A DNA stretch of 64,000 nucleotides, from NCBI GenBank assembly GCA_009782565.1, contig WRIU01000007.1, positions 62,001 through 126,000 on the forward strand, in the 5' to 3' direction. Each line of letters begins with the position of its first letter. The first letter of the stretch is position 1. The stretch is from Betaproteobacteria bacterium (lineage in GTDB: Bacteria > Pseudomonadota > Gammaproteobacteria > Burkholderiales > Rhodocyclaceae). The notes under the pieces were generated by a model. That model did not search any database. It saw only the letters and a list, made by a program, of their open reading frames with translations, and was not told the origin of the DNA. Below, piece after piece: positions 4,861 through 58,266 of the stretch. The position numbers were made by a program, and so were the translations under genes.

Positions 4861-5151
4861 TCAGCACTTTCCGCCACAGCCGCAGCCTGGAGCGGCAGAT
4901 GTGGACGGAGCACCGGCAGCACCGTCAATCCAGGCTGCTATTTCTTCCTTGGTGGGAACCCTGCCGGTTGATTTTATGATGCCGTCGATAACAACAGCCG
5001 GGGTAGAAACGATGCCTGAAACCATCATCTCCTTGAGATCGGTTACTTTTTGCACAGTGATATTTCCACCTTTGGCAGCGGCAACCTCTTTAACAAGATC
5101 TTCCGTTGTCGTGCAGCGGGCGCAACCGGGGCCGAATACTTTGATGTGCAT
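4861..5151 (-). CDS. Small thioredoxin-fold protein (redox-active disulfide type)
   Basis: A 96-residue protein of the TM0996/MTH895-like thioredoxin-fold family. The active-site motif is PGCARC near residue 11, followed by a typical fold with a cis-Pro strand ([10 protein letters not shown]). The tail carries an extra Cys cluster, CGCGGKC, that could bind metal or arsenic. An AGGAG precedes ATG 5151. Such genes often sit beside ArsP/YraQ-type permeases, as here, 22 bp after the permease gene. A role in reducing arsenicals or supplying thiols to the permease or ArsC is inferred from context. Confidence 0.8.
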
Positions 5152-5173
5152 GATTTTCTCCTTTTCGGAATGA

Positions 5174-6319
5174 CTACATGATGTACGGGCCGATGGCGTT
5201 GAACAGCCAGCCCACGAGAGTGAGCATCACCCATAGATAGGCAATGAGAACCCCCAACAGTTTGAATGTCATCACCTGCCGCAGCATCATGAACGATGGC
5301 GGGCTGGCGACAACGGCGCTCATGCAGAAAGCCATGGTCGTGCCAAGAGGAAGGCTTTTGAGCAAAAGGCTTTCCATTATCGGGATGATGCCGGTGACGC
5401 TGGAGTACAAAGGGATGCCTGCAAGGACGGCAGCAGGCACGGTCCACCAATCCTTGGCGCTGAAATTTTCCGCGAACCAGTTTTCCGGCACAAAGCCATG
5501 CAGGGCAGCCCCGATGCTGACGCCGACAATGACCCATTTCCAGGTACGTTTGAAAATCGTGGCCGTTTCGCCATAGGCAAAAGCATGCCGCTGGCGGATC
5601 GTCGGCTTTTGTACTTCCCCGGACTCCGAAACGAGTTGATGTTCGGGAGCACCGTTCATGCCCTCCAGAACAAAAGGCTGCAACCAGCGTTCTGCCCGGA
5701 TGCGATCCATAAACCAGCCGCCAAGAATGCCAGCCAGCATACCCACAAGCACATACGCTACTGTGAACTTCCAGCCCAGCAGCCCCCAGAGCAGAACAAT
5801 CGCGACCTCGTTGATCAAAGGCGATGTGATGAGAAAGGCCATGATTATGCCCATGGGAATGCGGGCACTGAGAAAGCCAAGGAAAAGCGGGATGCTTGAA
5901 CAGGAACAGAACGGGGTCAACGAACCGAACAGAGCACCGAGAAAATAGCCAAGGCCACGGTGTTTGCCTGAAAGATAGTCACGTACCCGCTCCACATTCA
6001 TGGAGGTTCGTATCCAGGCAATACCGTAAATCAAGGCGACAAGGAGGAGCAGAATCTTGGCCGTGTCGTAAAAAAAGAATTCGATGGCCGCACCGAGATG
6101 CGAGCCAACGGTAATGCCCAAGGCATCATACGTCAGCCAGCGTGAAACAGGGATGATGTACGAGTAGGCAAGCACCCACAGTACGGCAATGCCAACGATG
6201 CTGCCCGCGTAGCGATAGTTCCACGAACGGGCGCTGTCAACAGGGGAAGATAGCTGGGTCGGCATTTCCGCTACGGAACTGCAACAACGACCCGACAGGG
6301 TTTCCTTTCCGTTAGCCAT
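5174..6319 (-). CDS. ArsP_1/YraQ-family permease, probable organoarsenical exporter
   Basis: A 381-residue polytopic membrane protein of the permease family PF03773. The hallmark TPFCSCSSIPLFLGF lies in the first transmembrane half. ArsP members confer resistance to trivalent organoarsenicals such as methylarsenite. Because arsM in the same operon would generate such compounds, this is a sensible partner, but the substrate is inferred. I chose ATG 6319 because AGGAG sits five bases upstream; GTG 6325 would add two residues. The cytoplasmic loop near residues 225-255 is long and polar. The neighbours are arsC upstream and the thioredoxin-like gene downstream. Confidence 0.82.
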   Translation of the reverse strand: MANGKETLSGRCCSSVAEMPTQLSSPVDSARSWNYRYAGSIVGIAVLWVLAYSYIIPVSRWLTYDALGITVGSHLGAAIEFFFYDTAKILLLLVALIYGIAWIRTSMNVERVRDYLSGKHRGLGYFLGALFGSLTPFCSCSSIPLFLGFLSARIPMGIIMAFLITSPLINEVAIVLLWGLLGWKFTVAYVLVGMLAGILGGWFMDRIRAERWLQPFVLEGMNGAPEHQLVSESGEVQKPTIRQRHAFAYGETATIFKRTWKWVIVGVSIGAALHGFVPENWFAENFSAKDWWTVPAAVLAGIPLYSSVTGIIPIMESLLLKSLPLGTTMAFCMSAVVASPPSFMMLRQVMTFKLLGVLIAYLWVMLTLVGWLFNAIGPYIM

Positions 6320-6378
6320 CTGCACTCCTTGATGTGGTGAAAGTTGTTGAAGAGTTGAACATTTACAGACAAAAAAAC

Positions 6379-6852
6379 TTAGATAGAAGCGATGGAATCC
6401 AGCAGTTCCTGAAACCGGGCTTCATCCATATCACCTTCCACCTTCAAACCATTCACCAGGGAACCGATGCGTCTGCGCAATACATCAAGGGTACTGGTAA
6501 AAGCCGCGCCAATAGCCGCCTCGTCACCCTCTACCTTGGCAGGGTCAGGCATCCCCCAATGACTGCGCACAACCTGTCCGAAGTACAGCGGGCACGCTTC
6601 ACCCGCTGCGTCGGCGCACAGGGTTATCACCACATCCGGCTTTTCCGGTAGCTTGTCCCATGATTTGCTGAACAAGCCTTCTGTGGCAATCCCGGCTTCC
6701 CTTAACACGGCCAGGGCGCGGGGATTCACAAACCCTGCGGGATTGCTGCCCGCGCTCTGCACGGCCACACCGGCCGGAGCCATTGACTTGAGCAGGGCTT
6801 CCGCGATGACGGAGCGGCAGGAGTTGCCAGTACAGAGGAAAAGAATGTTCAT
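6379..6852 (-). CDS. arsC: Arsenate reductase, low-molecular-weight phosphatase type
   Basis: A 157-residue cytoplasmic arsenate reductase that reduces As(V) to As(III) for export or methylation. The catalytic P-loop CTGNSCRS is at residues 7-14. A second conserved stretch, TLCADAAGEACP, supplies resolving-type cysteines, and HWGMPDP near residue 100 carries the general acid aspartate. An AAGGAA lies seven bases before the ATG. It is the second arsenate reductase of the window: the other is the C-terminal half of the fusion at 1534-2415. It lies between arsM and the ArsP-like permease in one operon. Confidence 0.92.
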   Translation of the reverse strand: MNILFLCTGNSCRSVIAEALLKSMAPAGVAVQSAGSNPAGFVNPRALAVLREAGIATEGLFSKSWDKLPEKPDVVITLCADAAGEACPLYFGQVVRSHWGMPDPAKVEGDEAAIGAAFTSTLDVLRRRIGSLVNGLKVEGDMDEARFQELLDSIASI

Positions 6853-6881
6853 CCCGTATGTTCCTTGTGGTTAAGCACGCC

Positions 6882-7724
6882 CTATTTCTTGGCTTCAATG
6901 TCCAGGCTGACAACGTAATCCGCCATTTCCCTGCCTTTCGGCAATGCTTCGGCGATTTGCTTGTACAAGGGGTCGTTCCAGTCCTGCATGTTCCGCACAT
7001 AATCCGGCTTGGGCGTCAGGACGATGGACGTAAACCCGGCCTTTTCCAGCATGACCCTGGTTTCTTCCACCAGAGCTGCCCCAACCACGCATCCCACCAG
7101 TGCCGCTGCCATTTCCTGAAGCCTGTCGGGCAGAGGCTGCAACAGGGCAAGGTCAGATACGGATACTTTGCCGCCCGGTTTCAACACACGGAAGACCTCG
7201 CGCCAGACTTGAGGCTTGTCCGGGGAAAGGTTGATGACGCAGTTGGAGAGCACCACGTCAACACTGTTATCGGACACGGGAAGGTGTTCAATCTCGCCAA
7301 GGCGGAATTCCACGTTATCCAGGCAAGTGCGCTGCCGGTACTGCTCAGTATTTTCGCGAGCCTTGGCAAGCATTTCCGAGGTCATGTCCACGCCGATAAC
7401 CCGCCCAGAGGCTTTTACCTTCTCGCCTGCCTGAAACACGTCAAAACCGCCGCCACTGCCGAGATCAAGCACAGTCTGGCCTTCCTGCAAGGCCGCGATG
7501 GCGATGGGGTTACCGCAAGAAAGCCCCATGTTCGCGCCGTCCGGCAAATTGGCAAGACTTTCTGCATCGTAGCCTACGGCCTCTGCCAACCGAATGGGGT
7601 CGGGTTGACCACAACAGCCTCCTCCTCCGCAACAGGAACCTTGCCCCGTGGCAATAGCGGCGTATCCGGCGCGAACAGTTTTTTTGACCTGTTCGTTTGA
7701 TGCGCTTTTGTCTGGCGTGTTCAT
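6882..7724 (-). CDS. arsM: Arsenite S-adenosylmethionine methyltransferase
   Basis: A 280-residue cytoplasmic methyltransferase that converts As(III) to methylated arsenicals. The SAM-binding motif DLGSGGGFD is at 87-95. Three cysteines expected to hold As(III) are visible: C70 (GLSCGNP), C162 (SNCVINL) and C212 (GCVVGAA). A Cys-rich N-terminal stretch, SCCGGGGCCG, is at 30-39. I chose ATG 7724 because AGGAGA lies seven bases upstream; longer frames would run into arsR. It follows arsR by 26 bp. Methylation can produce toxic trivalent methylarsenite, which fits the ArsP-like exporter two genes on. Confidence 0.93.
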   Translation of the reverse strand: MNTPDKSASNEQVKKTVRAGYAAIATGQGSCCGGGGCCGQPDPIRLAEAVGYDAESLANLPDGANMGLSCGNPIAIAALQEGQTVLDLGSGGGFDVFQAGEKVKASGRVIGVDMTSEMLAKARENTEQYRQRTCLDNVEFRLGEIEHLPVSDNSVDVVLSNCVINLSPDKPQVWREVFRVLKPGGKVSVSDLALLQPLPDRLQEMAAALVGCVVGAALVEETRVMLEKAGFTSIVLTPKPDYVRNMQDWNDPLYKQIAEALPKGREMADYVVSLDIEAKK

Positions 7725-10647: not shown

Positions 10648-11507
10648 TGTGAGGCCGGGCAAAAACACATGGCGAACCGATTGGCCGCTGCCATGTGCGA
10701 CGCGGATGCGTGTGCCCGACATAGGGTGGAATGACGGGTGGCAGGACGTACCACCGAATGGACAGAAGCAATAGACGCATCCCGACAGGGACGGTCAGCG
10801 CGGGAAACCCCGCCGACAAAGCCTTGCTTCACAACTTCGCTGCTGCCCTTGGGAGGGCAAGCCAAACTATTGCCCCGAAGGGCATAGACAACTCTTCTAT
10901 TGCCCTCGGAAGGGCATCACTCAATCTGAACCAACGGCTCGGGTACTTTCAAATGCGGGTAACGACCGCTACGCCGGTTGAAAACCGGACTTCATTGCGC
11001 CTAAAGGACGATGAAGGCTTGAGGGCGCGATGCCCTCGAAATGCAAGCCCAGTATAGGGCTGCCCGAAACAATCCAAAAGCGGCAAGGGAAAAAAGATAC
11101 CGTTGAAATATCCGAAAAACAGCCTTTTCCATGTATCTCTTTGAATCACTCCAGGTGCACATATTTCGGAATTCTCACCCCTGCCGGATTTGGCAAGCCT
11201 TGACGGGCAAATCTTGGGCCTCTGGTTGGAGTTAAAAATGCGTGATCAGGATGAGGCAGTCCCGGCAAGCGCCGTTTCATAGAAACACCCTCTTGAAAAG
11301 TCGCCCCCCAGTGTGACTGTGGTGATAGTTGAGATGCCCGGACAGGCCATTTTTTGGCCGATGGCAAAAAGTCGCCCCCCAGTCGCCCTCCAGTGTGACT
11401 TCAGTGGGTTGATGTCGAAATGCGCGGGTTCAAGAGGCAATTCAAGCGGTGGAGTTCGTCTCATTCTGTCTGATGTCACCCAGGTTCGTCGGTCAAAGGG
11501 AGAAGAA
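10648..11507. other. Non-coding stretch with a regular hairpin array and inverted repeats
   Basis: About 860 bp without a convincing gene. An 8-bp inverted repeat CACATGGC/GCCATGTG is at 10666-10697. Four small hairpins share a GCCCT/AGGGC core: 10844-10859, 10871-10884, 10901-10916 and 11021-11037. The first three are spaced 27 and 30 bp, the fourth 120 bp later. A direct repeat pair follows at 11297-11400. The region could be a regulatory leader, a recombination site, or an origin-like array of the mobile element. Confidence 0.5.
11297..11400. repeat. Direct repeat pair upstream of the integrase region
   Basis: AAAAGTCGCCCCCCAGT occurs at 11297-11313 and again at 11367-11383. The block AGTGTGACT also occurs twice, at 11310-11318 and 11392-11400. 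Spacing of the first pair is 70 bp. Possible recombination-protein binding sites or a duplication scar. Confidence 0.55.
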
Positions 11508-11657
11508 ATGTTTGGGAAACGTTTTAGGTTCATTCACGGATGGATCGTGGGCGTTCAGGCCAATCCGGGACATGATGTGGCTATGGTCAGTTACCTGATC
11601 GACGAAGACTACCGTCGCTGGCGCGAAGCGCGCGAGGAGGAGGAATCGCCTATCTGA
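11508..11657 (+). CDS. Very small hypothetical protein upstream of the integrase
   Basis: A 49-residue frame starting at ATG 11508, preceded by GGGAGAAG at good distance. It begins MFGKRFRFIHG and ends in an acidic-basic helix (DYRRWREAREEEE). I do not recognise it. It could be a small regulator such as an excisionase-like or antirestriction factor of the island, but nothing in the sequence proves it. Longer in-frame upstream sequence looks non-coding. Confidence 0.4.
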   Translation: MFGKRFRFIHGWIVGVQANPGHDVAMVSYLIDEDYRRWREAREEEESPI

Positions 11658-11878
11658 TGGCGAAATGCCGCAATTTCAGGGCGACTTCCGGCTGGAATGA
11701 AAAAGCTGAACCTACGATGATGTTTGGATTGTTAAGTCAGTCCTCCGACCTGCCGGATTCCTCATATTTACAGAAGAGAACAGGTTTTGAAGGGCTTGAA
11801 CGCTGCCATCCGAATGTTCAAATGAATCATCGGACTAGGCGAAAAGCCCCATATCCTCTTCTCTCAATAACAATCATC

Positions 11879-13174
11879 ATGCCGTTTTTCGAAAAACTGA
11901 CTGCTCTAAAAGTCGCACGTATTTCCAAACCGGGGAAATATAACGACGGAAAAGGTCTTTATCTCTACGTAAAGGAAAGCTTGGCGAAATGCTGGGTGTT
12001 TCGTTACAAAATTGAAGGTTTAGAACACTACATGGGCATGGGTGGTCTTGGTGAGGTGAGCCTTGCCCAAGCAAGGGAAAAAGTGCGCCAAGCTCGTGAA
12101 TCATTGGCTCAGGGAATTGATCCATTGCATGCACGCGGAGTTGCCACGCAAAAGAAGATGGGAAAAGCACACCAGACTCGTGAATCCCCGATGCGAGTAA
12201 CTGAACCCTTGCAAATACAGCAGCAAACGGAAAAAAGGAACGCCAGCGATAAAACATTCGATCAATGCGCCAAGGAATATATTGCCAAGCGCAAAGCCGA
12301 ATGGAAATGTGAAAAACACGGGAAGCAATGGGAGTACACGCTCTTTACTTATGCCTCGCCATACTTCGGAAGGATGAATGTACGGTTGATTACAACCTCT
12401 CACATCCTCAAGGCATTGGATCCGATCTGGGAAACGAAAACTGAAACAGCAACCCGCCTGCGTGAGCGCATTGAACGGGTACTGGCCTGGGCAACGACCA
12501 TCGGCTACCGTGAGGGGGACAACCCGGCACGGTGGAACAGGCATTTGCAGGAACTGTTGCCCAAACCCGAAAAGCTCAAGAAGGCTCAGCATCACCCATC
12601 CATGCCATACGATCAGGTTGGGGATTTCTTCGGGCTGCTTGAAAAGGAAAAAGGTTTAGCTGCCCGCGCCCTGGAATTGACGATCCTGAGCGCATGCCGT
12701 ACATCTGAAGTCCTGCTCGCCAAATGGAAAGAATTCGACCTTTCCCGTCGTGTCTGGATCATCCCTGGGGAAAGAATGAAGAGTGGGCGCGAGCACCGCG
12801 TTCCGTTGGTGGATGCAACACTCGCAGTCCTCGAAAAAGTGTCTGGAATGGACACCATCTGGCTGTTTCCTGGTGCCAAGGAAGGGAAACCGTTGTCGAA
12901 TATGGCGATGTCGGTTCTCTTGCGGAGGATGAACCAAAGCCATGTCACCGTTCATGGTTTCCGATCTACCTTTCGTATCTGGGCTGCCGAGAAAACACAA
13001 CACGCAAGGGAGTTGGCAGAACTCGCGCTGGCTCATTCGGTAGGGACAGCGGTAGAACAAGCCTATCTGCGTTCTGATCTTTTTGAGAAGAGGCGGGCAA
13101 TCATGCAAGACTGGGCAGAGTGGTGTACCGGTACCCAAACAGTGCTGCCTGACGAGCGCAACAAGTCAACGTAA
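11879..13174 (+). CDS. P4-type tyrosine integrase of the genomic island
   Basis: A 431-residue integrase of the P4/CP4 prophage class. The N-terminal DUF4102-type arm-binding domain begins LTALKVARISKPGKYNDG, the core-binding domain follows an unusually long polar linker near residues 85-125, and the catalytic domain shows R274 (SACRTSE), H359 and R362 (HGFRSTFR), H386 and Y396. ATG 11879 was chosen because family similarity begins there; upstream in-frame sequence is not protein-like. It ends 157 bp from the 3' end of tRNA-Ser, the usual layout for such enzymes, so it is probably the integrase that put the arsenic island into the chromosome. Confidence 0.93.
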   Translation: MPFFEKLTALKVARISKPGKYNDGKGLYLYVKESLAKCWVFRYKIEGLEHYMGMGGLGEVSLAQAREKVRQARESLAQGIDPLHARGVATQKKMGKAHQTRESPMRVTEPLQIQQQTEKRNASDKTFDQCAKEYIAKRKAEWKCEKHGKQWEYTLFTYASPYFGRMNVRLITTSHILKALDPIWETKTETATRLRERIERVLAWATTIGYREGDNPARWNRHLQELLPKPEKLKKAQHHPSMPYDQVGDFFGLLEKEKGLAARALELTILSACRTSEVLLAKWKEFDLSRRVWIIPGERMKSGREHRVPLVDATLAVLEKVSGMDTIWLFPGAKEGKPLSNMAMSVLLRRMNQSHVTVHGFRSTFRIWAAEKTQHARELAELALAHSVGTAVEQAYLRSDLFEKRRAIMQDWAEWCTGTQTVLPDERNKST

Positions 13175-13230
13175 AAATTCCTTGTTCAGTTCGTCGTGTC
13201 ACATCGTCTTAGGAAGTCTCAGTACAGGGG

Positions 13231-13264
13231 TGGGGAACCAGATGGGGAACCAAGTGGGGAACCA
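13231..13264. repeat. Three tandem TGGGGAACCA repeats between integrase and tRNA-Ser
   Basis: TGGGGAACCA occurs at 13231-13240, 13243-13252 and 13255-13264, with an exact 12-bp period. It lies between the integrase stop and the tRNA 3' end, where arm-type integrase binding sites of an attachment region are expected. Function inferred from position. Confidence 0.6.
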
Positions 13265-13330
13265 CGAAGAAAAAGACGCCAGTTGGCAGATTTTTTCTAT
13301 CTATAAATCAAAACGTTGCAAAAAAACACT

Positions 13331-13350
13331 TTGGCGGAGAGAGTGGGATT
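13331..13350. other. Inferred attachment-site core at the tRNA-Ser 3' end
   Basis: P4-type integrases normally recombine within the 3' part of a tRNA gene. The orientation here (integrase to the left, tRNA 3' end facing it) places the junction in or near these bases. No second copy was found in the window, so the other end of the island should lie to the left of base 1. The exact core length is unknown. Confidence 0.45.
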
Positions 13351-13420
13351 CGAACCCACGGTAGGCTTACACCTACGCCTGATTTCGAGTCAGGTACCTT
13401 CAACCGCTCGGCCATCTCTC
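13331..13420 (-). tRNA. tRNA-Ser(CGA)
   Basis: A 90-nt tRNA gene with a seven-base-pair acceptor stem (GGAGAGA/TCTCTCC), encoded CCA, a long variable arm typical of serine, and anticodon CGA in the loop CTCGAAA. Its 3' end faces the P4-type integrase gene, which marks it as the probable insertion site of the island. The gene remains intact, as expected when the element restores the 3' end. Confidence 0.95.
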
Positions 13421-13643
13421 CGCTCGAAGCGCGAAATTATAGGCGACCCGGCAAAAAAAGATAGGCAGTGTGCGGTTTTTCTGTAGCGCCAAAAATTACG
13501 GTAAGGGACACTCCGCGCGGTGGACGACTGTCTCTTTTCTGACCTCACCTGTCTCATGTGCGTGTGTGTTTGTTGCCTTTGTACATGCACATAACTGTCA
13601 GGACAGGCATAATCAACCAGGTTCTTGTTTTTCGGGTGTTCGC

Positions 13644-15107
13644 TTGCGTCTTTCTCACGTCATTTTTGCTAGTTTCGCCACGCTCCTGATCGCGGCCATC
13701 GTAGTGACCGCCGTCAGCCCTTCCCATTCCCGCATCGAGGATTTCCGCGAGTTGGGCGAACTGCGGGTCGCTACCCGCGTCGATACGCTCTCTTACCGTG
13801 CGGATGAACGGGGGACTTACGCGGGTTTTGAGCACGATCTGCTGGTTGCGCTTGGGAAGCGCCTTGGGGTTCCGGTGCGTTTCGTGCCTTATCCGGATAC
13901 GGCGCATGCGCTTGAAGCCGTCACCAATGGACAGGCGCATCTGGCGGCAGCCGGATTGACTCCCGACAGCCATTTGCCCTTGGCCTGGACGGCAGGGCTG
14001 CGCGAAATTGATTTCGTGCTGGTTGGCCGCATGGGTCGCCGTTCTGCCCTGCGTGACCGGGATTTGTCCGGACGGGTCGTCACGGTGCGACAGGGGACGA
14101 AACTCGCTGCGTTGATGGAAACGCTCAAGCAAAGCGTCCCTGGGCTGGAAGTCGTCCATCCTGCCCCGCATACCGACGACCAGGAGTTGCTCATGCAAAC
14201 GGCGGCTGGCCGGATTGACCTCCTGGCAACCGACCGGGTGAATTACGCGCTCGCCAAGCGTTTAGCGCCTAAGCTGGCCATCGCCTACGACCTCCCGCTC
14301 AAGAGCGCGGTATCCTGGGCGACGCCGTTGCAAGCCGACGGCGGGCTGATGGGCGAAATCAATGACTTCCTCAACGAATCGGCCGGGAACGGTTTGCTGG
14401 CTAGTACGGCGGATCATTACTTCGGCCACATCCGCCGCCTCGATCATTACGACATCACGTTCTTTCTCAAGCGTATTCAGAACCGTTTGCCGCGCTATAT
14501 CCCCATTTTCCGCGAGGCGGAGAAGAAAACCGGCATCGACTGGCGCTTTCTGGCGGCGGTTTCTTATCAGGAATCGCATTGGGACCCGGAAGCCACGTCT
14601 TACACTGGTGTGCGCGGGATGATGATGCTGACCGTCGATACCGCCAACCGGCTCGGTGTCGAAGACCGCCTGGACCCAAGGCAGTCGATCCTTGGGGGCG
14701 CGCGCTATCTCTCTATGTTGCAGGCAAAACTCCCGAAAGAGGTTCTCCACCCCGACCGTATGTGGATGACTACCGCCGCTTACAACATCGGTCCCGGAGG
14801 GCTTAACAACGCCCGTGCGCTGGCTCGCCTGCTCGGCAAGAACGACACCGCGTGGGTGGATCTGAAATCCGTGCTGCCCCTGCTGTCGCAGCCCCAGTAC
14901 GCTACTCGGTTCAAGACGGGGCCGGTACGCGGCGGCGAGGCGCTCATCATGGCGGAGAATGTCCGTAATTTTTACGACGTCCTCCTCTACTCCTATCCGG
15001 TCGAGCGCCCCCTGCTAGTCGAATCCGACGCGGAACGGCCTCCTTCCGGCCTCCATCTCAATGCCCAGGTCATGCCGGGAGTACGCCTGCCGCAACCTGC
15101 GCCTTAG
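13644..15107 (+). CDS. mltF: MltF-type membrane-bound lytic murein transglycosylase
   Basis: A periplasmic, membrane-anchored lytic transglycosylase that cleaves peptidoglycan glycan strands. After a signal anchor (SHVIFASFATLLIAAIVV) comes a solute-binding-protein-like regulatory domain (about residues 30-270, starting LGELRVATRVD). A SLT domain follows, with the catalytic glutamate in SYQESHWDP, then AYNIGPGG. I chose TTG 13644 because it gives a charged N-terminus directly before the anchor. The frame stays open up to 13470 (545 codons in all), but that extension is Cys-rich and not protein-like. The start is therefore uncertain. It is divergent from tRNA-Ser and convergent with serS. Confidence 0.88.
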   Translation: MRLSHVIFASFATLLIAAIVVTAVSPSHSRIEDFRELGELRVATRVDTLSYRADERGTYAGFEHDLLVALGKRLGVPVRFVPYPDTAHALEAVTNGQAHLAAAGLTPDSHLPLAWTAGLREIDFVLVGRMGRRSALRDRDLSGRVVTVRQGTKLAALMETLKQSVPGLEVVHPAPHTDDQELLMQTAAGRIDLLATDRVNYALAKRLAPKLAIAYDLPLKSAVSWATPLQADGGLMGEINDFLNESAGNGLLASTADHYFGHIRRLDHYDITFFLKRIQNRLPRYIPIFREAEKKTGIDWRFLAAVSYQESHWDPEATSYTGVRGMMMLTVDTANRLGVEDRLDPRQSILGGARYLSMLQAKLPKEVLHPDRMWMTTAAYNIGPGGLNNARALARLLGKNDTAWVDLKSVLPLLSQPQYATRFKTGPVRGGEALIMAENVRNFYDVLLYSYPVERPLLVESDAERPPSGLHLNAQVMPGVRLPQPAP

Positions 15108-44993: not shown

Positions 44994-45078
44994 TGGTGCC
45001 CCGGATAGGACTCGAACCTACAAGCCTTGCGGCACTTGATCCTAAGTCAAGCGTGTCTACCAATTTCACCACCGGGGC
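44994..45078 (-). tRNA. tRNA-Leu(TAG)
   Basis: An 85-nt tRNA gene with encoded CCA, a long variable arm as in leucine tRNAs, acceptor stem GCCCCGG/CCGGGGC, and anticodon TAG in the loop CTTAGGA. It lies between yidD and hpnC on the opposite strand. Confidence 0.95.
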
Positions 45079-46883: not shown

Positions 46884-48200
46884 GTGACGGCAGTCGCCAT
46901 CATCGGCGCGGGTTATGCAGGGCTTGCGTGCGCGGTAGAACTGGCTCGCCAGGATGTGGAAGTCACCGTATTTGAGCGCTCCAGAACGCTAGGTGGTCGG
47001 GCGCGGATCATCAGAAAGGACGGTTGGACAGTCGACAACGGCCAGCACTTGATGATCGGGGCTTACGCCGAACTGACCCGCCTGTTGCGCCTCACCGGCG
47101 TATCGCCGCGCCAGATCAAACATTTTCCGCTCACGCTGCACATTCCGGGGCAACTTCATCTGCAAGCCGCCGCCCTACCCGCCCCCTTGCACCTGTTCAC
47201 GGGGCTCATCTGCGCGCGGGGCTTGAGTTGGCGCGAACGGTTCGCCATTTGCGCGTTGTTGCGCCATCTCAAGCGCAGGCGTTTCCAACTCCCCGCAGAG
47301 ATGACCGTTACCGAATTACTCACCGGCTGCCACCAGCCCCCCCGGCTGCGTAACCTGCTCTGGGAACCGCTCTGTCTGGCCGCGCTCAACACCCACGCCC
47401 ATGAAGCCTCGGCTCAAATCTTCGCCAACGTCCTGCGCGACACGCTGGCCGCCACTTCGGCCTCCGCCAGCGAATTGCTGATTCCCCGCGTCGATCTCTC
47501 CGAACTCTTTCCCGTCCCGGCGGCAAGATACCTCGCCACCCGGAACGGGAACATTCTCACCGGCAACGCCATTACCGCAATCACTCCGGACAACGCAGGG
47601 TTTCGCCTCGTCGGCGCGCCGGGACATCGCATCTGGCCGCAAGTCGTCATTGCCACCGCGCCGCATCACGCCGTCCCCCTGCTCGACTCCACCGGAGCCT
47701 GTCCTCAACTCTCGGCTCAAATCGCCGCCCTGCCCTCCGAACCAATCACTACGATCTACCTCGCCTTCGGCTCCGGAGTCGCTTTGCCCGCGCCAATGAT
47801 CGGCCTAGCCGAAAAACCCGCGCAATGGGCTTTCGACCGAGGCCAATGCGGGGAGCCGGAGGGCCTGATTGCCGCAGTCATCAGCGCACCCCGCCTTGAG
47901 CCGAAAGACCGCGACGCCCTGATTCCCACCGTCATCAATCAACTCGAAAGCGCGCTTGGCCGCAAACTGCCCGAGCCCCAATGGACGCGCGTCATCACCG
48001 AAAAACGTGCAACCATCGCCTGCCGTCCCGGCCTTGCCCGCCCCAACATCGCCACGCCGCTACCCGGCCTTTGGCTGGCTGGCGATTACATCGAGAGCGA
48101 ATACCCGGCCACGCTGGAATCCGCCGTGCGTGCGGGCGTCCGGTGCGCGCGGGAGATCATGGGCGGGAAACCGCATCGAGAAGTCTCAGAAACCTCCTGA
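46884..48200 (+). CDS. hpnE: Hydroxysqualene dehydroxylase HpnE
   Basis: A 438-residue FAD-dependent amine-oxidase-fold enzyme that reduces hydroxysqualene to squalene. The dinucleotide motif is GAGYAGLACAVELA near the N-terminus, and GLWLAGDYIESEYPATLESAVRAG (positions ~390-415, given by location) closes the FAD site. It starts at GTG 46884. No squalene-hopene cyclase follows in the window; the downstream DNA is an accessory cassette. Confidence 0.92.
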   Translation: MTAVAIIGAGYAGLACAVELARQDVEVTVFERSRTLGGRARIIRKDGWTVDNGQHLMIGAYAELTRLLRLTGVSPRQIKHFPLTLHIPGQLHLQAAALPAPLHLFTGLICARGLSWRERFAICALLRHLKRRRFQLPAEMTVTELLTGCHQPPRLRNLLWEPLCLAALNTHAHEASAQIFANVLRDTLAATSASASELLIPRVDLSELFPVPAARYLATRNGNILTGNAITAITPDNAGFRLVGAPGHRIWPQVVIATAPHHAVPLLDSTGACPQLSAQIAALPSEPITTIYLAFGSGVALPAPMIGLAEKPAQWAFDRGQCGEPEGLIAAVISAPRLEPKDRDALIPTVINQLESALGRKLPEPQWTRVITEKRATIACRPGLARPNIATPLPGLWLAGDYIESEYPATLESAVRAGVRCAREIMGGKPHREVSETS

Positions 48201-48391
48201 AGCGCCACTATCTCGCGTTGGTTTCACCACTACAAGCAGGCCGGAGCAGGGAACGCCTCTTGTGTACGCTCTAGCTTTTCCCTCAAATACGTCCAATTCT
48301 GTCGCATACACGCTCTATAGTAAAAATAGGTTCGATGAAGCAGGGGTTTCCTTCTTCCCCCTTCCGCCAACGACAAGCCAGGAGCGCAGAC

Positions 48392-50425
48392 ATGATGGAC
48401 GAAAAAGAAAAACAGGTTGTTTTTTACTACCTCAACAATTTGGTGCAAAAGTCGTTCTCGAAAAGGAAAGAGGGCGACATTCTCTCGTGGGTTGAAAATA
48501 ACTCCGAGGATTTATTCGGCATAGAACTTGAGTGCAAATGGGACAAACATGGGCGCAAAAAATATCGCCTCTCCCTCAACCACGAGGATTTTGCAGAATG
48601 TGACGAAGAGCAGATGTTCGCCCGCGACATGGGGACAATCCGTGCCATTCTTTCCGGGCATAAAATAAAGAACATTGCCGCAAAAGCTTATGATAAGGGC
48701 ATTGACACGATATTCGATGTATTCGAGATTGCTTCCGATTATCAAGCAATTTTGCGGTATATGATTTACTGCGAAAAACTGCCGATGATGAACGATTTCA
48801 CTTCCAATATCACAAGTTGGCACAACAGTAGATTGGAATATCGCTTCTACGCTGCAATCGCAGACGTGGCGCACCACATTATCGAAAAATGTTTTTCTTT
48901 TGACAGCCCACTTGTGCTGAAAGGCATTATTGAAAAAGATAGCGACGGGGATATAAAACTTTCCGATTCGTTCCGCAGATTGCTTCATTCCAAACATAAC
49001 ACCAAGGCCGAAATAAGAAGGGCTATGCTTGGGGAAACCGCGAGCGCTACGCTAACCCGTAATAATTTCAAATATATCGAAGATGAATATGATTACATCC
49101 GAGCAATCCTAAGCAATGCAGTCAAGGAGCAAAAGGCCGGCATGAATATTCTGATTTATGGCATTCCCGGCACAGGTAAAACCGAGCTATGCAAGACCAT
49201 TGCGAAGGATATTGAATCAAGTCTTTATATGGTTTCGGAAACAGCAGAAAATGATAGGGGTAATCGTATTTTCGATTTAACGCTTGCTCAAACTCTGCTT
49301 GCGGATGACAAGAACGCTGTGATATTGCTTGATGAGGCGGAGGATGTTTTCTACGCCTCTCCATTTGCCCAGAAAAAGGACTCCAAGCTCTTTTTCAACC
49401 GCATGTTGGAAAAAAACAAAACCCCTGTGATATGGATTTCAAACGATATAAGGGGCATGGACGCAGCCTATATCCGCAGGTTCAAGTATGCGCTTGAGGT
49501 CAGAAAGCCCGACCAAGCCGCCACGCTGGAGATTTGGAAAAACATCTGTGCCAAACACAATGTTGAACTCCCAGCCGACATGATTGCCGAATATGCGAAA
49601 AAATACGACATCGCGCCTTCATTCATTGATACGGCGATCTGCGCTGTAAATTTCGCAAAATCTACGGATGCGATTGAGCGGACAATAGACAGCTTGCAAA
49701 AAGCGACTTTCGGATTCGTCCCAAGAAAGAAGGACACTGAGGAAGTAAATTTTGTACCCGAACTCCTGAACACGGATACGGACTTGAGCGACCTTGCCTA
49801 CAGAGTCGTCAAGAAAGGCAGTCTCAAGTTTTCGCTTTGCCTTTATGGCGCGCCGGGTACGGGAAAATCAGCCTTTGCCCGCCACCTCGCAGAAAAAATG
49901 GGTTTGAAAGTCATCCAAAAGCGGGCAAGCGACCTCTTGAGCATGTGGGTTGGCGAAACGGAAAAGAACATTGCACAGGCTTTCAATGAAGCCTATGCAA
50001 CAAAATCGCTCCTGGTGTTCGACGAGGCCGATTCGTTCCTCTGCGACCGGAAAGGGGCAGCACATAGCTGGGAAGTGTCGCAGGTCAACGAAATGCTGAC
50101 ATGGATGGAAAGCCACCCGTACCCGTTCATTTGCACGACCAACCTCATGCAGAATCTGGACGAGGCGAGCTTGCGGCGGTTCAAGTTCAAGGTCAAATAC
50201 GACTTCCTGAAACCGGAACAGGTCAGCCTTGCGTTCAAGCACTTCTTTGGGGACGAGGCTGAGGTTTTACTCTCACACCTCACGCATCTGACGCCGGGGG
50301 ATTTCGCGGTCGTCAAGAGCAAGCAGGACATCCTCGACACCATCGACCAGTCCGAGCTTGTCCATATGCTTGAGTTGGAACAGGCCGCAAAGGGTATCAG
50401 GACGACAAGACTGGGGTTTGTGTGA
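48392..50425 (+). CDS. Tandem AAA+ ATPase of the candidate defence cassette
   Basis: A 677-residue cytoplasmic protein with two AAA+ modules. The first has Walker A GIPGTGKT at 257-264 and Walker B DEAED at 314-318; the second has GAPGTGKS at 486-493 and DEAD at 544-547. The N-terminal ~245 residues show no domain I recognise and may sense or bind a target. ATG 48392 has AGGAG seven bases upstream; an earlier ATG at 48335 lacks one. It leads a three-gene cassette with a DUF262 nuclease and a WYL regulator, 191 bp after hpnE. Codon use is more AT-rich than in the core genes around it. Confidence 0.85.
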   Translation: MMDEKEKQVVFYYLNNLVQKSFSKRKEGDILSWVENNSEDLFGIELECKWDKHGRKKYRLSLNHEDFAECDEEQMFARDMGTIRAILSGHKIKNIAAKAYDKGIDTIFDVFEIASDYQAILRYMIYCEKLPMMNDFTSNITSWHNSRLEYRFYAAIADVAHHIIEKCFSFDSPLVLKGIIEKDSDGDIKLSDSFRRLLHSKHNTKAEIRRAMLGETASATLTRNNFKYIEDEYDYIRAILSNAVKEQKAGMNILIYGIPGTGKTELCKTIAKDIESSLYMVSETAENDRGNRIFDLTLAQTLLADDKNAVILLDEAEDVFYASPFAQKKDSKLFFNRMLEKNKTPVIWISNDIRGMDAAYIRRFKYALEVRKPDQAATLEIWKNICAKHNVELPADMIAEYAKKYDIAPSFIDTAICAVNFAKSTDAIERTIDSLQKATFGFVPRKKDTEEVNFVPELLNTDTDLSDLAYRVVKKGSLKFSLCLYGAPGTGKSAFARHLAEKMGLKVIQKRASDLLSMWVGETEKNIAQAFNEAYATKSLLVFDEADSFLCDRKGAAHSWEVSQVNEMLTWMESHPYPFICTTNLMQNLDEASLRRFKFKVKYDFLKPEQVSLAFKHFFGDEAEVLLSHLTHLTPGDFAVVKSKQDILDTIDQSELVHMLELEQAAKGIRTTRLGFV

Positions 50426-50552
50426 TTTTCGTCCAGAATTGACGAATCCCTCTTGACAGTACAAATCACTAAGAGCAGAGTTCTTGGAATATCCGTTTAG
50501 GGTATAAAACTGTTTCTAAGGCTTGCCGTAAAAACTAGGGAAGAAGACAAAC

Positions 50553-52760
50553 ATGTGCAATACTAATTTGTTGAATCTAATGACACTTATCAACCTTGTA
50601 GAAGGCACAGATACTGGTGAGGAGTTTAAAGGTAAAAAGTTCGACCTGCCCAATATCCAAAGAGGTTTTATTTGGAAGGCGAGTCAGATAGAAAATCTTT
50701 GGGACTCTTTATTACGAAGATTTCCGACAGGTTCTATTATTTCAGAAACAACTAAAGATAACAAAATCTTGCTACTTGATGGACAACAAAGAACTACATC
50801 CATAGCACTTGGATTTGGAGATTTGAAATCAACAAATCTTCGCTCTTCATCAGATGAAATTAGAATTTTTATTGATATGAGAAAACCAAATTCGAAAGAA
50901 GGTCGAAAGTACGCTTTTCGAGTAATTACCCGTTCACATCCATGGGGATACCAGCGCAACGATAATACAAAACCGCTTGAAGCGAATGATAAGTCTCGGG
51001 CTTTAGAGCTTTGGGACGAGGATGATCCGTTCAAAGAGAAAATATTGCAGAAAATCTATCCTTTTGATGCCATCGCTCCACTTCCACTGAATCTGTTCAC
51101 CAATGCTGTAAGGTACGGATATACAAAAGATGCGCTCAAAAAGGAATTACTCGCATGGGTAAGGAAAGTTTATAAAGACGCAACGCTCGAAACTATAACA
51201 AACTGGCTTGAATACAAACGTGGCATAAACGAAAACGAGAAGTCAGATTCGTATTCAATTGATCACATTTTCGATCAAGTAAGAATGATGTGGGATGCTT
51301 ATCAAATTCCGATGATTCCTCTTCCCTCAAACCTATTTGATAGTTCAGGCGATCTTTCTTCTTTCGATGACTCTTCTGATAAAAACACAAATGATGACGA
51401 AAATGATGAAAATGAAAAGCATGACAGTATAGAAGCGGTCTTTATACGCCTTAATTCCGCAGGCACTCCACTAGGGGGAGAAGAACTCAATTATTCATTG
51501 ATTAAATCAAAAATAGAACAATCTCTTCAAAAGAAAATAGAGCAATCTTGTGATGGAATCATGAAGCCTTCGCGTTTCATAAGCCTTGCCTATCGTCTTT
51601 ATCAGCAACAATCAGAAAGAAAATCATCTGACTCCATCGACCTTCGCGTTAGACCAAGACAATTTCAGACAGAAATGTGCGATATAGACAACAAAAATAG
51701 TTTTATAGTTTTTATTGACAAAGAGCTTTTATCTAAAAATAAAAACATTTTAGAGAAAATAAAATCTGTTCTTAAGTACGGAGAAAAAGACTTAAAAGGT
51801 TACAGCGAATCAATTAAAGACTACCGTCTCCCGTATCCACTATTTATAAAAATAGCCTCCGCATCGTATGGAGAAATAATGTTCATCCTTTTGTACAGAA
51901 TATTTATTAAAGGGGATTATTCTAAATTTGAATATGGCTCACGATGTCATCGTCATATGATTGCCATAATACTGCTACTTTTATGGAATGGAAAGGATTC
52001 AAGAAGTCGCTATGATAAGCTTATCAATAGAATATGGGAAAATGTTAAGAATGATGAGATCGATAACATGTGGGGTTCATCGCTTATTCAAAAAGCTAGC
52101 GTTGCAAGAGACGATGAAAAAGAAGCTCCTCTTAAAGCCATTCCTACTAAAACAAGCTTATTCTTGAATGTACTAAAAAACCCTCGAACCAATACCCCTT
52201 GGGAAAAAAATATAAACGATACCGATTATTCGGATTTTATCTATAATGTGATGTGCAACCGTGATCTACTTTTGTGGACGCAACGTGACTTCTTATCAGA
52301 TAAAACTTTTTTTGACGACAAATTATTTCGCCTAGATGATACAGACGTTCCATTTGACTGGGATCATATTTCGCCATATGACTATATAAAAAGCGTTAAC
52401 GGGGTTCCGTCTGTGTTCAAATTTATATATAACACTCCCGCAAACCTTAGAGTCTGGCCGTATAAATTAAACAGATCAGATCAAAATGGTGCCCCCTCAA
52501 TAAAATTGGATGCCACGAAAAATCAAACCATCATTGAATTACTTGGAGAAACCGTCAAGAAAAACAAAAACTATTTGCTTGACAAATCTTTTTGCGATAA
52601 AGAGTGGCTAAAATTGAAGGAAAGAGAAAAAGGACAAAAGAAGATAGACTTCATAATTAAAAATAGAAACTGGATTAATATTTATAATTGCATATTCAAT
52701 AGATGGAAGAAAATATATGATGCATTTGTTAGTGATCTTGAGATAAGAGATTTGCTTTAA
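50553..52760 (+). CDS. DUF262/DUF1524 GmrSD-like HNH endonuclease
   Basis: A 735-residue protein. The N-terminal DUF262 (ParB-like nuclease/NTPase) domain shows FDLPNIQRGFIWK (30-42) and LLDGQQRTTSIAL (74-86). The C-terminal DUF1524 part has an HNH-type motif FDWDHI (601-606, H605), followed by NTPANLRVWPYKLNRSD, the usual asparagine-rich finish. This domain order is that of fused GmrS-GmrD type IV restriction enzymes, which cut modified phage DNA. A highly acidic low-complexity stretch lies near 270-295. The gene is about one third G+C by eye, far below the genome, showing recent transfer. The WYL gene begins 4 bp after its stop. Confidence 0.85.
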   Translation: MCNTNLLNLMTLINLVEGTDTGEEFKGKKFDLPNIQRGFIWKASQIENLWDSLLRRFPTGSIISETTKDNKILLLDGQQRTTSIALGFGDLKSTNLRSSSDEIRIFIDMRKPNSKEGRKYAFRVITRSHPWGYQRNDNTKPLEANDKSRALELWDEDDPFKEKILQKIYPFDAIAPLPLNLFTNAVRYGYTKDALKKELLAWVRKVYKDATLETITNWLEYKRGINENEKSDSYSIDHIFDQVRMMWDAYQIPMIPLPSNLFDSSGDLSSFDDSSDKNTNDDENDENEKHDSIEAVFIRLNSAGTPLGGEELNYSLIKSKIEQSLQKKIEQSCDGIMKPSRFISLAYRLYQQQSERKSSDSIDLRVRPRQFQTEMCDIDNKNSFIVFIDKELLSKNKNILEKIKSVLKYGEKDLKGYSESIKDYRLPYPLFIKIASASYGEIMFILLYRIFIKGDYSKFEYGSRCHRHMIAIILLLLWNGKDSRSRYDKLINRIWENVKNDEIDNMWGSSLIQKASVARDDEKEAPLKAIPTKTSLFLNVLKNPRTNTPWEKNINDTDYSDFIYNVMCNRDLLLWTQRDFLSDKTFFDDKLFRLDDTDVPFDWDHISPYDYIKSVNGVPSVFKFIYNTPANLRVWPYKLNRSDQNGAPSIKLDATKNQTIIELLGETVKKNKNYLLDKSFCDKEWLKLKEREKGQKKIDFIIKNRNWINIYNCIFNRWKKIYDAFVSDLEIRDLL

Positions 52761-52764
52761 GCCC

Positions 52765-53754
52765 ATGAATCCCGGACGCGACAACTACAGCAGACTCTAC
52801 GATCTCCTGACCCTCATAAACCTGCTCCGCAACTCCATGCGCGGGTTGACCTATGATGATATACGTGAAAAGATCGGTTGGAAGCGCAGAACTGCCGAGC
52901 GGATGCTGACGCTCATAGAAACCCAATATGGTCGCAGTTTTGAAAGGAAACGAGGCGAAGAAAATAAGATGGTTTTTCGCCTACTTGGCAACGATAATTT
53001 TCCTCCAAACTATATATCCGAAAATGAAATCGTCGCCCTTAAAACCGCGCTCGGATTTGTGAAAACGAATGAAACTTTGAGGCTTCCGCTTGAGAGTTTG
53101 GCGGGAAAGCTGGAAGTATCGAAAAATGACAGAGCCAGTAATATCGAGGATTTGACTCTCGTCATCGGGACAGCCTCCGCCCCGCGTCCGCGTATTCAAA
53201 CCGATCAAAAAATAATCGAAACCTTGCAGGATGCCATCCTCGCTTGTCACATAGTAAAAATAGACTACAAACAATCTACAGACGAAGCGATTACGCAGCT
53301 TGTTTTGTGCCCGCTAGGTTTCCTTTATGGAGCACAGAACAACTATCTCGTGGCTGCGTACAAGGGCGAAGCTGGCTGGCCTCGGCATTATATTTTGAAT
53401 CAAGTATTGAGCGTTGAAGTCAGCGACAAGTATTTTGACGCAAAAGGTTTCGACATACACGAATACGCCGCAAAATCTTTCGGTGCGTGGATTTCGCACG
53501 ACGGCGGATACAAGGTCAAATGGCGCGTAAAACCCGAAGCGGCAGAACAGGCGCAGCGGTTCGTTTTCCACCCGACACAGAAAATAACACTGCAAAAGGA
53601 CGGCTCCCTCGTTGTGGAATTTTTCGCGGATGGCTTGAAAGAAATGGCTTGGCATCTTATGACATGGGAGGGAAAAATCCAGCCCATCGCACCAAAGGAA
53701 CTTATCGCCGAATATAAGAAGCAACTGAAACTAGCGGCAGAAGCATTGAAATAA
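52765..53754 (+). CDS. WYL-domain transcriptional regulator
   Basis: A 329-residue regulator. An N-terminal helix-turn-helix (MRGLTYDDIREKIGWKRRT, residues ~26-45) is followed by a WYL domain around residues 150-220 (VKIDYKQ ... VLCPLGFLYGAQNNYLVAAYKG) and a WCX-type C-terminus. WYL proteins commonly control phage-defence operons, often binding nucleic-acid fragments or nucleotides. It closes the AAA+/DUF262 cassette, only 4 bp after the nuclease gene, and is therefore its probable regulator. Composition is intermediate between the nuclease gene and the host. Confidence 0.87.
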   Translation: MNPGRDNYSRLYDLLTLINLLRNSMRGLTYDDIREKIGWKRRTAERMLTLIETQYGRSFERKRGEENKMVFRLLGNDNFPPNYISENEIVALKTALGFVKTNETLRLPLESLAGKLEVSKNDRASNIEDLTLVIGTASAPRPRIQTDQKIIETLQDAILACHIVKIDYKQSTDEAITQLVLCPLGFLYGAQNNYLVAAYKGEAGWPRHYILNQVLSVEVSDKYFDAKGFDIHEYAAKSFGAWISHDGGYKVKWRVKPEAAEQAQRFVFHPTQKITLQKDGSLVVEFFADGLKEMAWHLMTWEGKIQPIAPKELIAEYKKQLKLAAEALK

Positions 53755-53881
53755 AAACGAATGCTGCTCTCTCGAAATACGATTATATGGCAAAATGCTA
53801 AAATGAAGCGCGATGTCAAACTGATATTGTCCGCTTCCAGCACCAGTACTCATTCCGACCTTTTTGGCGAGCAGCCCCTCG

Positions 53882-55120
53882 TTACCCCCTCCCGTACCGC
53901 CCGCTCACTGATTCGGCAAAAGCGCGGCACAGGCGGTTGACCCGTCCGTCCCAATGGAATAGCTCGCCATGACGCCGGATGGCTACACGATCCCATGTCC
54001 GCGACAGCGCCAGATCAATGGCTGCACTCAGGGCAGATGGGTCGCCCAGGGAGGCGAGTTCCCCCAGTTCTGGGCGAATGAGTTCGCGATGTCCCCCCGC
54101 ATCGAAGGCGACGACCGGCAGGCCACAGGCCGTTGCTTCGAGCAACGCCGTCGCCGAGCCTTCGTGGCGCGCGGCGGACACGAATACGTCGGCAGCCGAC
54201 AGCAGGCCGGACAATCCGTCCGGCGGCAGGGCGTCAAGAAAACGCACCGTCTCTTTCAGGTTCAGCCGTTCGACCAGGGTTTCCAACTCGGCGCGCCTGT
54301 CATTCTCCAGACACTCCGGGCCGACAAGCAGGCAAACCAGCCCTGGCCACTTCCCGGTAAGCGCCGGAAGCGCCTCGATGACCCGGTTACAGCCTTTTTC
54401 CTCGGACAATCGGCCTGAACCGGAGGAAACCAGCACTGGAGCGGTCGGTGGAATCCCCAACGCAGCACGCGCCGCGTTGCGGTCACGCGGACGGAAACTT
54501 TCGGCGTCGATGCCGTTGCCAACCACTTCGACCCGATCATCCGACGCGCCTAGTTCAATAGCAAACTGGCGCAGGGATTCGCTGACGGCAAATATCCGCG
54601 CCGCTCCCTTGAACGCCTCGCGCAATTTCAAAATCAGCCGAGGATTTCGCGCACAGGCCAATTCACCGCCATGCAGGGTAATCGTGACCGGAACACCAAG
54701 CTGACGCCCCAACAGAACGCCCGCATAGCCATCCGGGTAAGCGCCATGCGCGTCGATCAAATCGAGCCGCCCCGCGCTATGCAGCGCGGCAAAACGGGGA
54801 TAGGCCCCTCTGGCCATCGCCCAGCCGTCCAGCAGCCGCAGCACATTCGGCCCCGGCACGGTTAGAAAACGGGGAAACCATACGGCAATCCCCTGCTGTT
54901 CTTCGTATTCCGGCATGCTCGGACGGAAAGCCGGATTCAGGTTCTGGCGAATCCAATCCTCCAGCGGGACCCAGGGCGTGGGCGAGACGACGAACAAAGG
55001 TAGGCGGCGCGCGACGCGGAACATGCGCTCACGGACGGACAAACCCAGGTTCGGCTGCAATCTGCTTGGGAACTGGCTGCTCAATACGCCGATATGCGGG
55101 CCTTTGGATATTTCAGCCAT
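53882..55120 (-). CDS. Glycosyltransferase family 4 protein
   Basis: A 412-residue GT-B glycosyltransferase. The N-terminal domain ends near ITLHGGE, and the C-terminal GT4 signature is HEGSATALLEATACGLPVV with the E-x7-E pair. The nucleotide-sugar-binding VGNGIDAESF lies mid-protein. Donor and acceptor are unknown; surface polysaccharide is likely. ATG 55120 was chosen because family similarity starts there. The frame is open to 56167, but that stretch is antisense to thiD. It is divergent from the TPP riboswitch and thiD. Confidence 0.9.
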   Translation of the reverse strand: MAEISKGPHIGVLSSQFPSRLQPNLGLSVRERMFRVARRLPLFVVSPTPWVPLEDWIRQNLNPAFRPSMPEYEEQQGIAVWFPRFLTVPGPNVLRLLDGWAMARGAYPRFAALHSAGRLDLIDAHGAYPDGYAGVLLGRQLGVPVTITLHGGELACARNPRLILKLREAFKGAARIFAVSESLRQFAIELGASDDRVEVVGNGIDAESFRPRDRNAARAALGIPPTAPVLVSSGSGRLSEEKGCNRVIEALPALTGKWPGLVCLLVGPECLENDRRAELETLVERLNLKETVRFLDALPPDGLSGLLSAADVFVSAARHEGSATALLEATACGLPVVAFDAGGHRELIRPELGELASLGDPSALSAAIDLALSRTWDRVAIRRHGELFHWDGRVNRLCRAFAESVSGRYGRG

Positions 55121-55296
55121 CACAAAACATCCCGCCCTGGAGACCGGGGCAAGCCGAACAATAAGGAGAAATGCCCAAACCGGGCACAGGGACAATTCGT
55201 TTTCATTGGGGGGACGATGATATGGCATGACCTCTTCCCGTAGCAAGGCCAACTCCCACGCTTGCAAGCGGGACACACATCCAGTATCGTCACGCG

Positions 55297-55385
55297 ACCG
55301 TTGGGGGTGTCCGCGCTTCGAGCAGCGCGGGCTGAGAAAGACCCCTGGAACCTGACCCGGCTCATACCGGCGTAGGGAAACGTGA
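55297..55385 (+). promoter_or_regulatory. TPP riboswitch (THI element)
   Basis: The conserved thi-box blocks are all present in order: GGGGTGTC near 55304, CTGAGAAAGACCCC near 55332, GAACCTGACCCGG near 55348 and CATACCGGCGTAGGGAAACGTG at its end (shown split by position). It sits directly before thiD and would shut off the thiamin genes when thiamin pyrophosphate is bound, probably by covering the ribosome-binding site GTAGGGA. Confidence 0.93.
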
Positions 55386-55387
55386 CC

Positions 55388-58266
<2,879 letters not shown>

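Follow-up and report, generated by a model that had tools for sequence, protein, structure and literature searches.

The stretch of DNA analysed here (64,000 nucleotides of contig WRIU01000007.1 from a Betaproteobacteria bacterium; hereafter the window) carries, between hpnE and a glycosyltransferase gene, three co-directional genes coding for a tandem AAA+ ATPase, a DUF262/GmrSD-like nuclease and a WYL regulator. We give somewhat better than even weight to the view that this locus is a mobile defence-type island, in which a Cdc48-like AAA protein and a DriD/BrxR-type WYL protein form the core and the GmrSD/BrxU-like nuclease is one of several exchangeable effectors. The ATPase and the WYL protein are regarded as the core because the pair recurs, while the neighbouring nuclease or NAD/RNA-processing genes vary. 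The trio would be one variant of this wider AAA-WYL association; a defence function is plausible, and the genomic context suggests a joint role of the island genes in it. An earlier note on this DNA had proposed an undescribed defence cassette. The locus indeed appears to be acquired, defence-type and distinct from the named systems of PADLOC-DB; the exact trio, however, does not hold up as a conserved system.

The three open reading frames (ORFs) contain no internal stop and fill positions 48392 to 53754 on the plus strand, which bears out the arrangement described in the earlier note. The ATPase gene (48392-50425, 677 amino acids) has an in-frame start at 48392, and the longest ORF opens at 48335. 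It is followed by a gap of 127 bp (50426-50552), the nuclease gene (50553-52760, 735 amino acids) and, 4 bp past the nuclease stop codon, the gene for the WYL + WCX transcriptional regulator (52765-53754, 329 amino acids). The upstream ORF, ending at 48200, and the opposite-strand downstream ORF, ending at 53882, are taken to be hpnE and the glycosyltransferase gene on the basis of the earlier note and a reading of the translations. No promoter-like or operator-like signals beyond chance were found, the gap at 50426-50552 included.

Comparison with congeneric genomes shows that the block has been inserted. hpnE has matches at E ≤ 0.001 in 18 of the 20 genomes searched (the window's own included), some of them weak, and ten congeneric hpnE loci (L131-L140) were retrieved. 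Three of these, L131, L132 and L133, have the window's glycosyltransferase gene directly after hpnE and represent empty sites: in blastn and junction alignments, their DNA homology to the window ends at about 48160-48170 and restarts at about 53897-53913, and the island is replaced by 9 bp, about 92 bp and about 258 bp, respectively. The island (48166-53905, approximate ends) is about 5.74 kb long. In the other seven loci, no blastn match to the glycosyltransferase gene was obtained in the flanks retrieved, which comprise at most 1.5 kb and almost nothing for L140. Of the 21 genomes of the genus that were searched, mostly drafts, 12 reach 90% completeness and have contamination no higher than 5%. 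Within this set of 21, the ATPase is present in the window's own genome and absent from the other 20 (E ≤ 1e-40), and the nuclease has, besides itself, one weak partial match (2.5e-4). The guanine-cytosine (GC) content is 47.0% for the ATPase gene, 35.3% for the nuclease gene and 47.5% for the WYL gene, compared with 64.2% for hpnE and 58.7% for the window once the island is excluded. The island is a lineage-specific, horizontally acquired low-GC insertion, and since relatives have empty sites, the block is more than a chance grouping. The nuclease gene is strikingly AT-rich relative to the rest of the window, as had been claimed, and also differs in composition from both of its island neighbours. 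The border stretches covered in a search for repeats share no identical run of 10 bp or longer, and a tRNA insertion site was discarded, as the nearest tRNA gene (44994-45078) lies 3 kb from the insertion.

The link between the ATPase and the WYL protein was followed across bacterial genomes. Species genomes were scanned with an AAA profile built from 23 members, which yielded at least 299 confirmed relatives, of which the best 80 were kept; together with 16 plasmid loci (H1-H16, from 734 records) and the window, they make up a set of 97 loci. Two plasmid loci with a nuclease homologue and no AAA gene, L038 and L039, stand outside this count. In 58 of the 97 loci, a WYL gene is found at a distance of up to three genes from the ATPase gene, and the share of WYL genes falls with distance from it, from 42/187 at distance 1 to 11/619 at distances 4 to 9. 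When the loci are ordered by similarity of their AAA protein to that of the window, beginning with the window itself, WYL genes occur within three genes in 17/20, 15/20, 10/20, 7/20 and 9/17 of the successive groups. A check with Pfam models covered 70 AAA places in 59 genomes; WYL is found within 5 kb at 15 of them (0.39 expected under random placement) and DUF262 at two (0.20 expected). This sample consists of the strongest matches, 25 from one scan and 45 from another; matches weaker than the one in genome G026 (mostly generic AAA proteins), G068:C38, repeated occurrences of G026, G072 and G107 and a piece of G616:C94 are left out, and G432, G535 and G547 are each counted as two places, which may be fragments of one gene.

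Furthermore, the two proteins diverge together. For 50 pairs, namely those of the 58 WYL-linked loci that passed length filters, AAA and WYL distances correlate with a rho of 0.527, a value reached in none of 2000 permutations, and the nearest neighbour is identical for both proteins in 25 of the 50. After thinning to 31 pairs, rho is 0.451 and the permutation maximum 0.243. This co-divergence is stronger evidence for the AAA-WYL link than the excess in proximity. A quick tree was built for 93 AAA proteins, spanning ten named phyla with WYL-linked members from at least seven. On it, the WYL label changes 16 times, compared with a mean of 29.8 after shuffling (0 of 500 shuffles as low); WYL linkage is thus clustered by clade, yet has often been gained or lost. 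The WYL protein of the window could be aligned with the WYL proteins linked to AAA genes elsewhere. No description of an AAA-WYL association was found in the open-licence literature searched, including the portions covered of PMC4012209, PMC12409362, PMC12839542 and PMC10952713, which does not imply that it is absent from print.

Several observations weigh against a core of ATPase and WYL regulator with exchangeable effectors. In a control with the same genomes, 2 of 36 DUF262 genes have a WYL gene within about 5 kb, one of them in a trio in G026; compared with the AAA places, this gives a Fisher p of 0.049, so that an excess over the general crowding of islands is only modestly supported in the 70-place sample. 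The WYL profile was trained on the same loci that it scored, and shared host descent may account for part of the co-divergence. There is no WYL gene within three genes in 39 of the 97 loci, or within 5 kb at 55 of the 70 places; some of these loci are near contig ends, whereas WYL is missing on full stretches in clades whose AAA genes are associated with RecQ-like or Rtc-like genes. A simple scan revealed no shared operator. Finally, a GmrSD gene within two genes and on the same strand as the ATPase gene is found only in L060, L091 and L112 of the 96 other loci and in locus L190 of G026.

Among the paired loci, a single one supplies both the AAA protein and the WYL protein closest to those of the window: L050, a metagenome-assembled genome of the Fibrobacterota and hence of another phylum, and the pairing of the two AAA proteins has a value of 99 in the Shimodaira-Hasegawa-like approximate likelihood ratio test. 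At the DNA level, homology of about 65% extends over window positions 49137-50425, up to the stop codon of the ATPase gene, and resumes from 52778, 13 bp inside the WYL gene. Between these two blocks L050 has 72 bp, whereas the window has 2352 bp, which hold the nuclease gene; in L050, the AAA and WYL genes are adjacent with no nuclease gene. The nuclease may have been gained in the lineage of the window or lost in that of L050, and its low GC content favours a gain.

The L050 locus also bears on a different explanation, in which the nuclease would be a stand-alone BrxU-like type IV restriction enzyme under WYL control and the ATPase a mere neighbour of unrelated function. The spacing of the genes speaks for this explanation, since the DUF262 and WYL genes are 4 bp apart and the AAA and DUF262 genes 127 bp. 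The two plasmid records with nuclease homologues, L038 and L039, contain no relative of the window's AAA or WYL protein by phmmer, and the AAA ATPase annotated in L039 is a 412-amino-acid protein beside ParB. In addition, the part of Picton et al. that was covered (PMC9122601) gives co-localization with type IV enzymes for 37 of 210 BrxR-family WYL homologues. However, the WYL protein co-diverges with the ATPase, L050 has both proteins without DUF262, and the order of the trio occurs again in G026. A stand-alone restriction enzyme is considered rather improbable.

The recurrence of the trio is limited. Judged by ORF order together with a DGQQR-type motif, the arrangement AAA-DUF262-WYL is absent from all 96 other AAA loci, and of the two AAA places with DUF262 within 5 kb, one (L190 in G026) has the three genes in the same order and on the same strand, with the AAA gene split into two frames by a frameshift or an assembly fault. 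L112 has the order AAA-WYL-GmrSD, and Pfam-confirmed GmrSD genes within six genes of the ATPase gene are found in L060, L072, L091, L112 and L123, besides the window. The trio was accordingly dropped as a conserved unit (0/96 loci, 1/70 places): the earlier note had looked to a conserved neighbourhood and had itself named rare co-location as the outcome that would speak against it. A dedicated and obligate three-gene system, whose AAA, GmrSD and WYL genes would have evolved together, could draw on the trio in G026 and on the arrangement in L112. The nucleases at the other loci, however, belong to other GmrSD subclasses: blastp of the window's nuclease across the 97 loci gave only local matches outside the window (E of 0.005 or weaker), and in hhalign a profile of six other GmrSDs, that of G026 included, aligns with the window's subfamily over only 60 N-terminal columns. 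That subfamily is found at E ≤ 1e-60 in one of 398 sampled genomes of the phylum, which is the window's own, and the AAA-WYL pair occurs without a nuclease and beside other nucleases. An obligate trio is thus very unlikely.

The ATPase itself has two intact ATPase sites in two stretches of the Pfam family PF00004, in agreement with the tandem AAA+ assignment of the earlier note. The first ring (D1) has a Walker A motif at residues 257-264, a Walker B motif up to D314/E315 and paired arginines at 362-363; the second (D2) has Walker A at 486-493, Walker B up to D544/E545, paired arginines at 595-596 and an aromatic pore-loop residue, W519. All 43 proteins of an alignment keep, in both rings, the Walker lysine, the glutamate of Walker B and the arginine pair, and the D2 pore-loop position is aromatic in every one (W in 25, Y in 15, F in 3). 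An aromatic pore loop is typical of AAA+ proteins that thread protein, and the ATPase may act as a protein remodeller. An AlphaFold2 model reached a mean predicted local distance difference test score (pLDDT) of 87.1 and a predicted template modelling score of 0.74. In a profile comparison, VCP/Cdc48-like ATPases come out as the closest relatives of solved structure (best 60 of 168 matches); the protein has in common with them the paired AAA rings, the intact ATPase motifs and the aromatic D2 loop. Unlike in Cdc48/VCP, D1 of the window's protein lacks an aromatic pore loop; the best-matched stretches cover mostly the second ring, and none reaches the N-terminal region among the same 60 matches. 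The family PHROG 10401, with 'ATPase' as its sole label, spans residues 97-673 (6e-82). Relatives are widespread, with the AAA family present at E ≤ 1e-60 in 42 of the 398 phylum genomes and also carried on plasmids; on viral contigs, tblastn (E ≤ 1e-3) gave 44 loci, many of them generic AAA matches, and a WYL gene adjoins the AAA gene in 3 of the 12 best.

In the regulator, Pfam detects both WYL (PF13280) and WCX (PF25583), confirming its earlier assignment, and lists no helix-turn-helix family; the winged helix-turn-helix (wHTH) domain is covered by the alignment to DriD only, and an architecture of wHTH, WYL and WCX fits. The best solved relative is PDB 9pfq (2.9e-31), residues 10-322 matching residues 9-322 of DriD, followed by 8tp8 (3.9e-31), which we also take to be DriD. 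Like DriD, BrxR and CapW, the protein combines WYL with WCX, and like BrxR it is found in a defence-type island; in contrast to these regulators, it is encoded by the last gene of the row. According to the part of PMC12340889 covered, 9PFQ shows DriD with single-stranded DNA (ssDNA) and RNA polymerase, ssDNA being the trigger of DriD. By analogy, the island is probably switched by a DriD-like, ssDNA-sensing WYL protein, which would make the regulator a nucleic acid-triggered switch.

The nuclease is a divergent member of its class. Pfam finds DUF262 (PF03235, 3.2e-21) at residues 26-312, and PADLOC a weak match to HEC-05 (2.6e-18). The protein contains Q36-R37, D76-G-Q-Q-R80 and F297xxxN301, invariant in three aligned members, and QR, DGQQR and FxxxN are the motifs named for DUF262 in the portion of PMC11411939 covered. 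At the C terminus, D604-H605, N631 and N640 are invariant in 3/3 aligned relatives and fit the H-N-N motif of DUF1524, although Pfam did not detect DUF1524 (PF07510) in the protein. Since Pfam, the profile comparison and a single-sequence structure model (pLDDT 34, unusable) gave no support for the C-terminal half, the HNH assignment is by motif; of the DUF262/HNH nuclease proposed in the earlier note, the DUF262 half is confirmed and the HNH half stands on H605, N631 and N640. The protein is best described as a putative GmrSD/BrxU-like, type IV-like nuclease with a candidate C-terminal HNH domain, and its motifs suggest a cutter that senses modified DNA. With BrxU and GmrSD (HEC-05) it shares the N-terminal DUF262 motifs, the single polypeptide and a putative C-terminal H-N-N motif, and with the BrxR/BrxU island the position of a DUF262 nuclease gene next to a WYL gene. 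It differs by its divergence, as the phmmer match to PDB 7p9k, which we take to be BrxU, is confined to residues 28-63, and the three island genes include no BREX genes. The homologues on L038 and L039, the two plasmid records found, are 26% and 24% identical, respectively. A phage origin of the nuclease was considered and is unsupported, as none of 51 pattern matches in viral contigs could be confirmed.

If these assignments are correct, the island could work as follows. Phage attack or DNA damage would generate ssDNA or a similar nucleic acid signal, which would be bound by a dimer of the WYL protein. The WYL protein would then either raise expression of the island, as DriD does, or release it, in the manner of BrxR. 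The DUF262 domain might recognize foreign, probably modified, DNA using a nucleoside triphosphate, and the C-terminal HNH domain would cut it. A hexamer of the ATPase could thread protein through its aromatic D2 pore, thereby loading, licensing or dismantling a nucleoprotein complex for the adjoining effector; this step between ATPase and effector is the least certain part of the mechanism.

At the level of whole systems, the island was compared with those already named. PADLOC gave part-level matches to its database profiles, IetA for the ATPase, HEC-05 for the nuclease and CRISPR-associated or generic WYL for the regulator, and a named PADLOC system was therefore rejected. No NCBIfam match exceeds its cut-off among the AAA matches listed (25 of 88), and the other two proteins have none at E ≤ 0.1. 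IetAS consists of the ATPase IetA and an adjacent subtilase partner, IetS. Although IetA is the best PADLOC match of the ATPase, its best stretch corresponds to one AAA domain, the NCBIfam model IteA scores 105 bits where 510 are required, and the island has no subtilase partner, Pfam detecting no peptidase in the nuclease or the WYL protein; an identity with IetAS was discarded. Conflict systems centred on ADP-ribosylglycohydrolase combine WYL or Nudix regulators with variable nucleases, phosphatases and helicases (PMC9503650). A WYL regulator with ADP-ribosylglycohydrolase, phosphatases, nucleases and helicases as changing modules is likewise seen around the ATPase in L034, L035, L070, L076 and L078, whereas the island of the window lacks an ADP-ribosylglycohydrolase; the word AAA does not occur in the main text of PMC9503650, figures and supplements aside.

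The genes around the ATPase vary widely. Their labels derive from Pfam (the PLD match being below cut-off) or from the way a member of the cluster is annotated on a plasmid; the labels RtcA, RtcR, RecQ, ThrDH and PEPCK are our own readings of the sequences, and 'AddA/AddB-like' is our name for annotated pairs of UvrD helicase and PD-(D/E)XK nuclease. Within six genes of the ATPase gene in the 97 loci are clusters of DUF2779 (14 loci), ADP-ribosylglycohydrolase (10), AddA-like helicase (10), AddB-like nuclease (9), RtcB (6), FtsZ-like (6), PLD-like (6), HEPN (5) and Sir2 (4) proteins, as well as RecQ-like genes in 13 loci, mostly at one Comamonadaceae site without WYL; some of these labels are our own readings. 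A DUF2779/Cas4-like gene stands exactly between AAA and WYL in L037, L042, L097 and L122, with the family established by a scan in L042. It is tempting to speculate that the ATPase and the DriD-like WYL protein constitute an immune or stress chassis, so far without a name and moving horizontally, that accepts different effectors (GmrSD, Cas4-like DUF2779, AddAB-like, ADP-ribosylglycohydrolase, HEPN, Sir2 or RNA repair), with the ATPase as common actuator and the WYL protein as common trigger; this broader proposal is tentative and somewhat unlikely as it stands.

The same neighbours are relevant to yet another explanation, a stress operon for the repair of DNA or nucleic acids, in which AAA-WYL would deal with damaged DNA or RNA and the nuclease would serve in repair or suicide. 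The closest WYL structure is that of the DNA-damage activator DriD, and relatives of the ATPase adjoin RtcA/RtcB/RtcR-like, AddAB-like and RecQ-like genes, several of these labels being our own readings. The patchy presence in the genus, the carriage on plasmids and viral contigs and the many conflict-type neighbours fit defence better, and we consider a repair operon unlikely, although repair and defence roles are not mutually exclusive.

WYL regulators and GmrSD nucleases are already known as parts of defence islands. An AAA protein that co-diverges with a WYL protein while the adjoining nuclease changes suggests a reusable immunity core, which would escape effector-centred searches, and the AAA profile offers a handle for finding further islands. 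The locus would gain in interest should nuclease-based protection turn out to need the ATPase.

Some arrangements around the ATPase genes deserve mention in their own right. In the sphingomonad loci L081, L087 and L089, the ATPase gene directly follows an RtcA-like gene, RtcB-like and RtcR-like genes are nearby and the locus contains no WYL gene, which suggests a link of the ATPase to RNA repair, the RtcA and RtcR labels being our own readings. Eleven Comamonadaceae loci (L093, L098, L099, L102, L103, L108, L116, L119, L120, L125 and L129) have the AAA gene beside a RecQ-like gene and no WYL gene; a PEPCK-like gene also adjoins, except in the short contig L120 (both labels being our own readings), and the ATPase looks like a resident subfamily at one fixed chromosomal place. 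An FtsZ/tubulin-like GTPase is encoded near the AAA gene in six of the 97 loci (L042:5148-6338, L061:13543-14217, L073, L077, L092 and L096), assigned by PF00091 in L061 and by cluster in the others. In L053, genes for very large proteins of 1467 and 1454 amino acids (2509-6912 and 10703-15067) flank AAA and WYL, and for the 1467-amino-acid protein Pfam gives nothing at E ≤ 0.001. One protein cluster is encoded two genes from AAA in both L092 (12889-14400) and L073 (7518-8357); its L092 member, judged by eye, looks like a reverse transcriptase of retron-like type. Outside the island, the window contains an ordinary thiamine pyrophosphate riboswitch (55293-55395) just upstream of a plus-strand ORF at 55382, which we take to be a thiamine gene.

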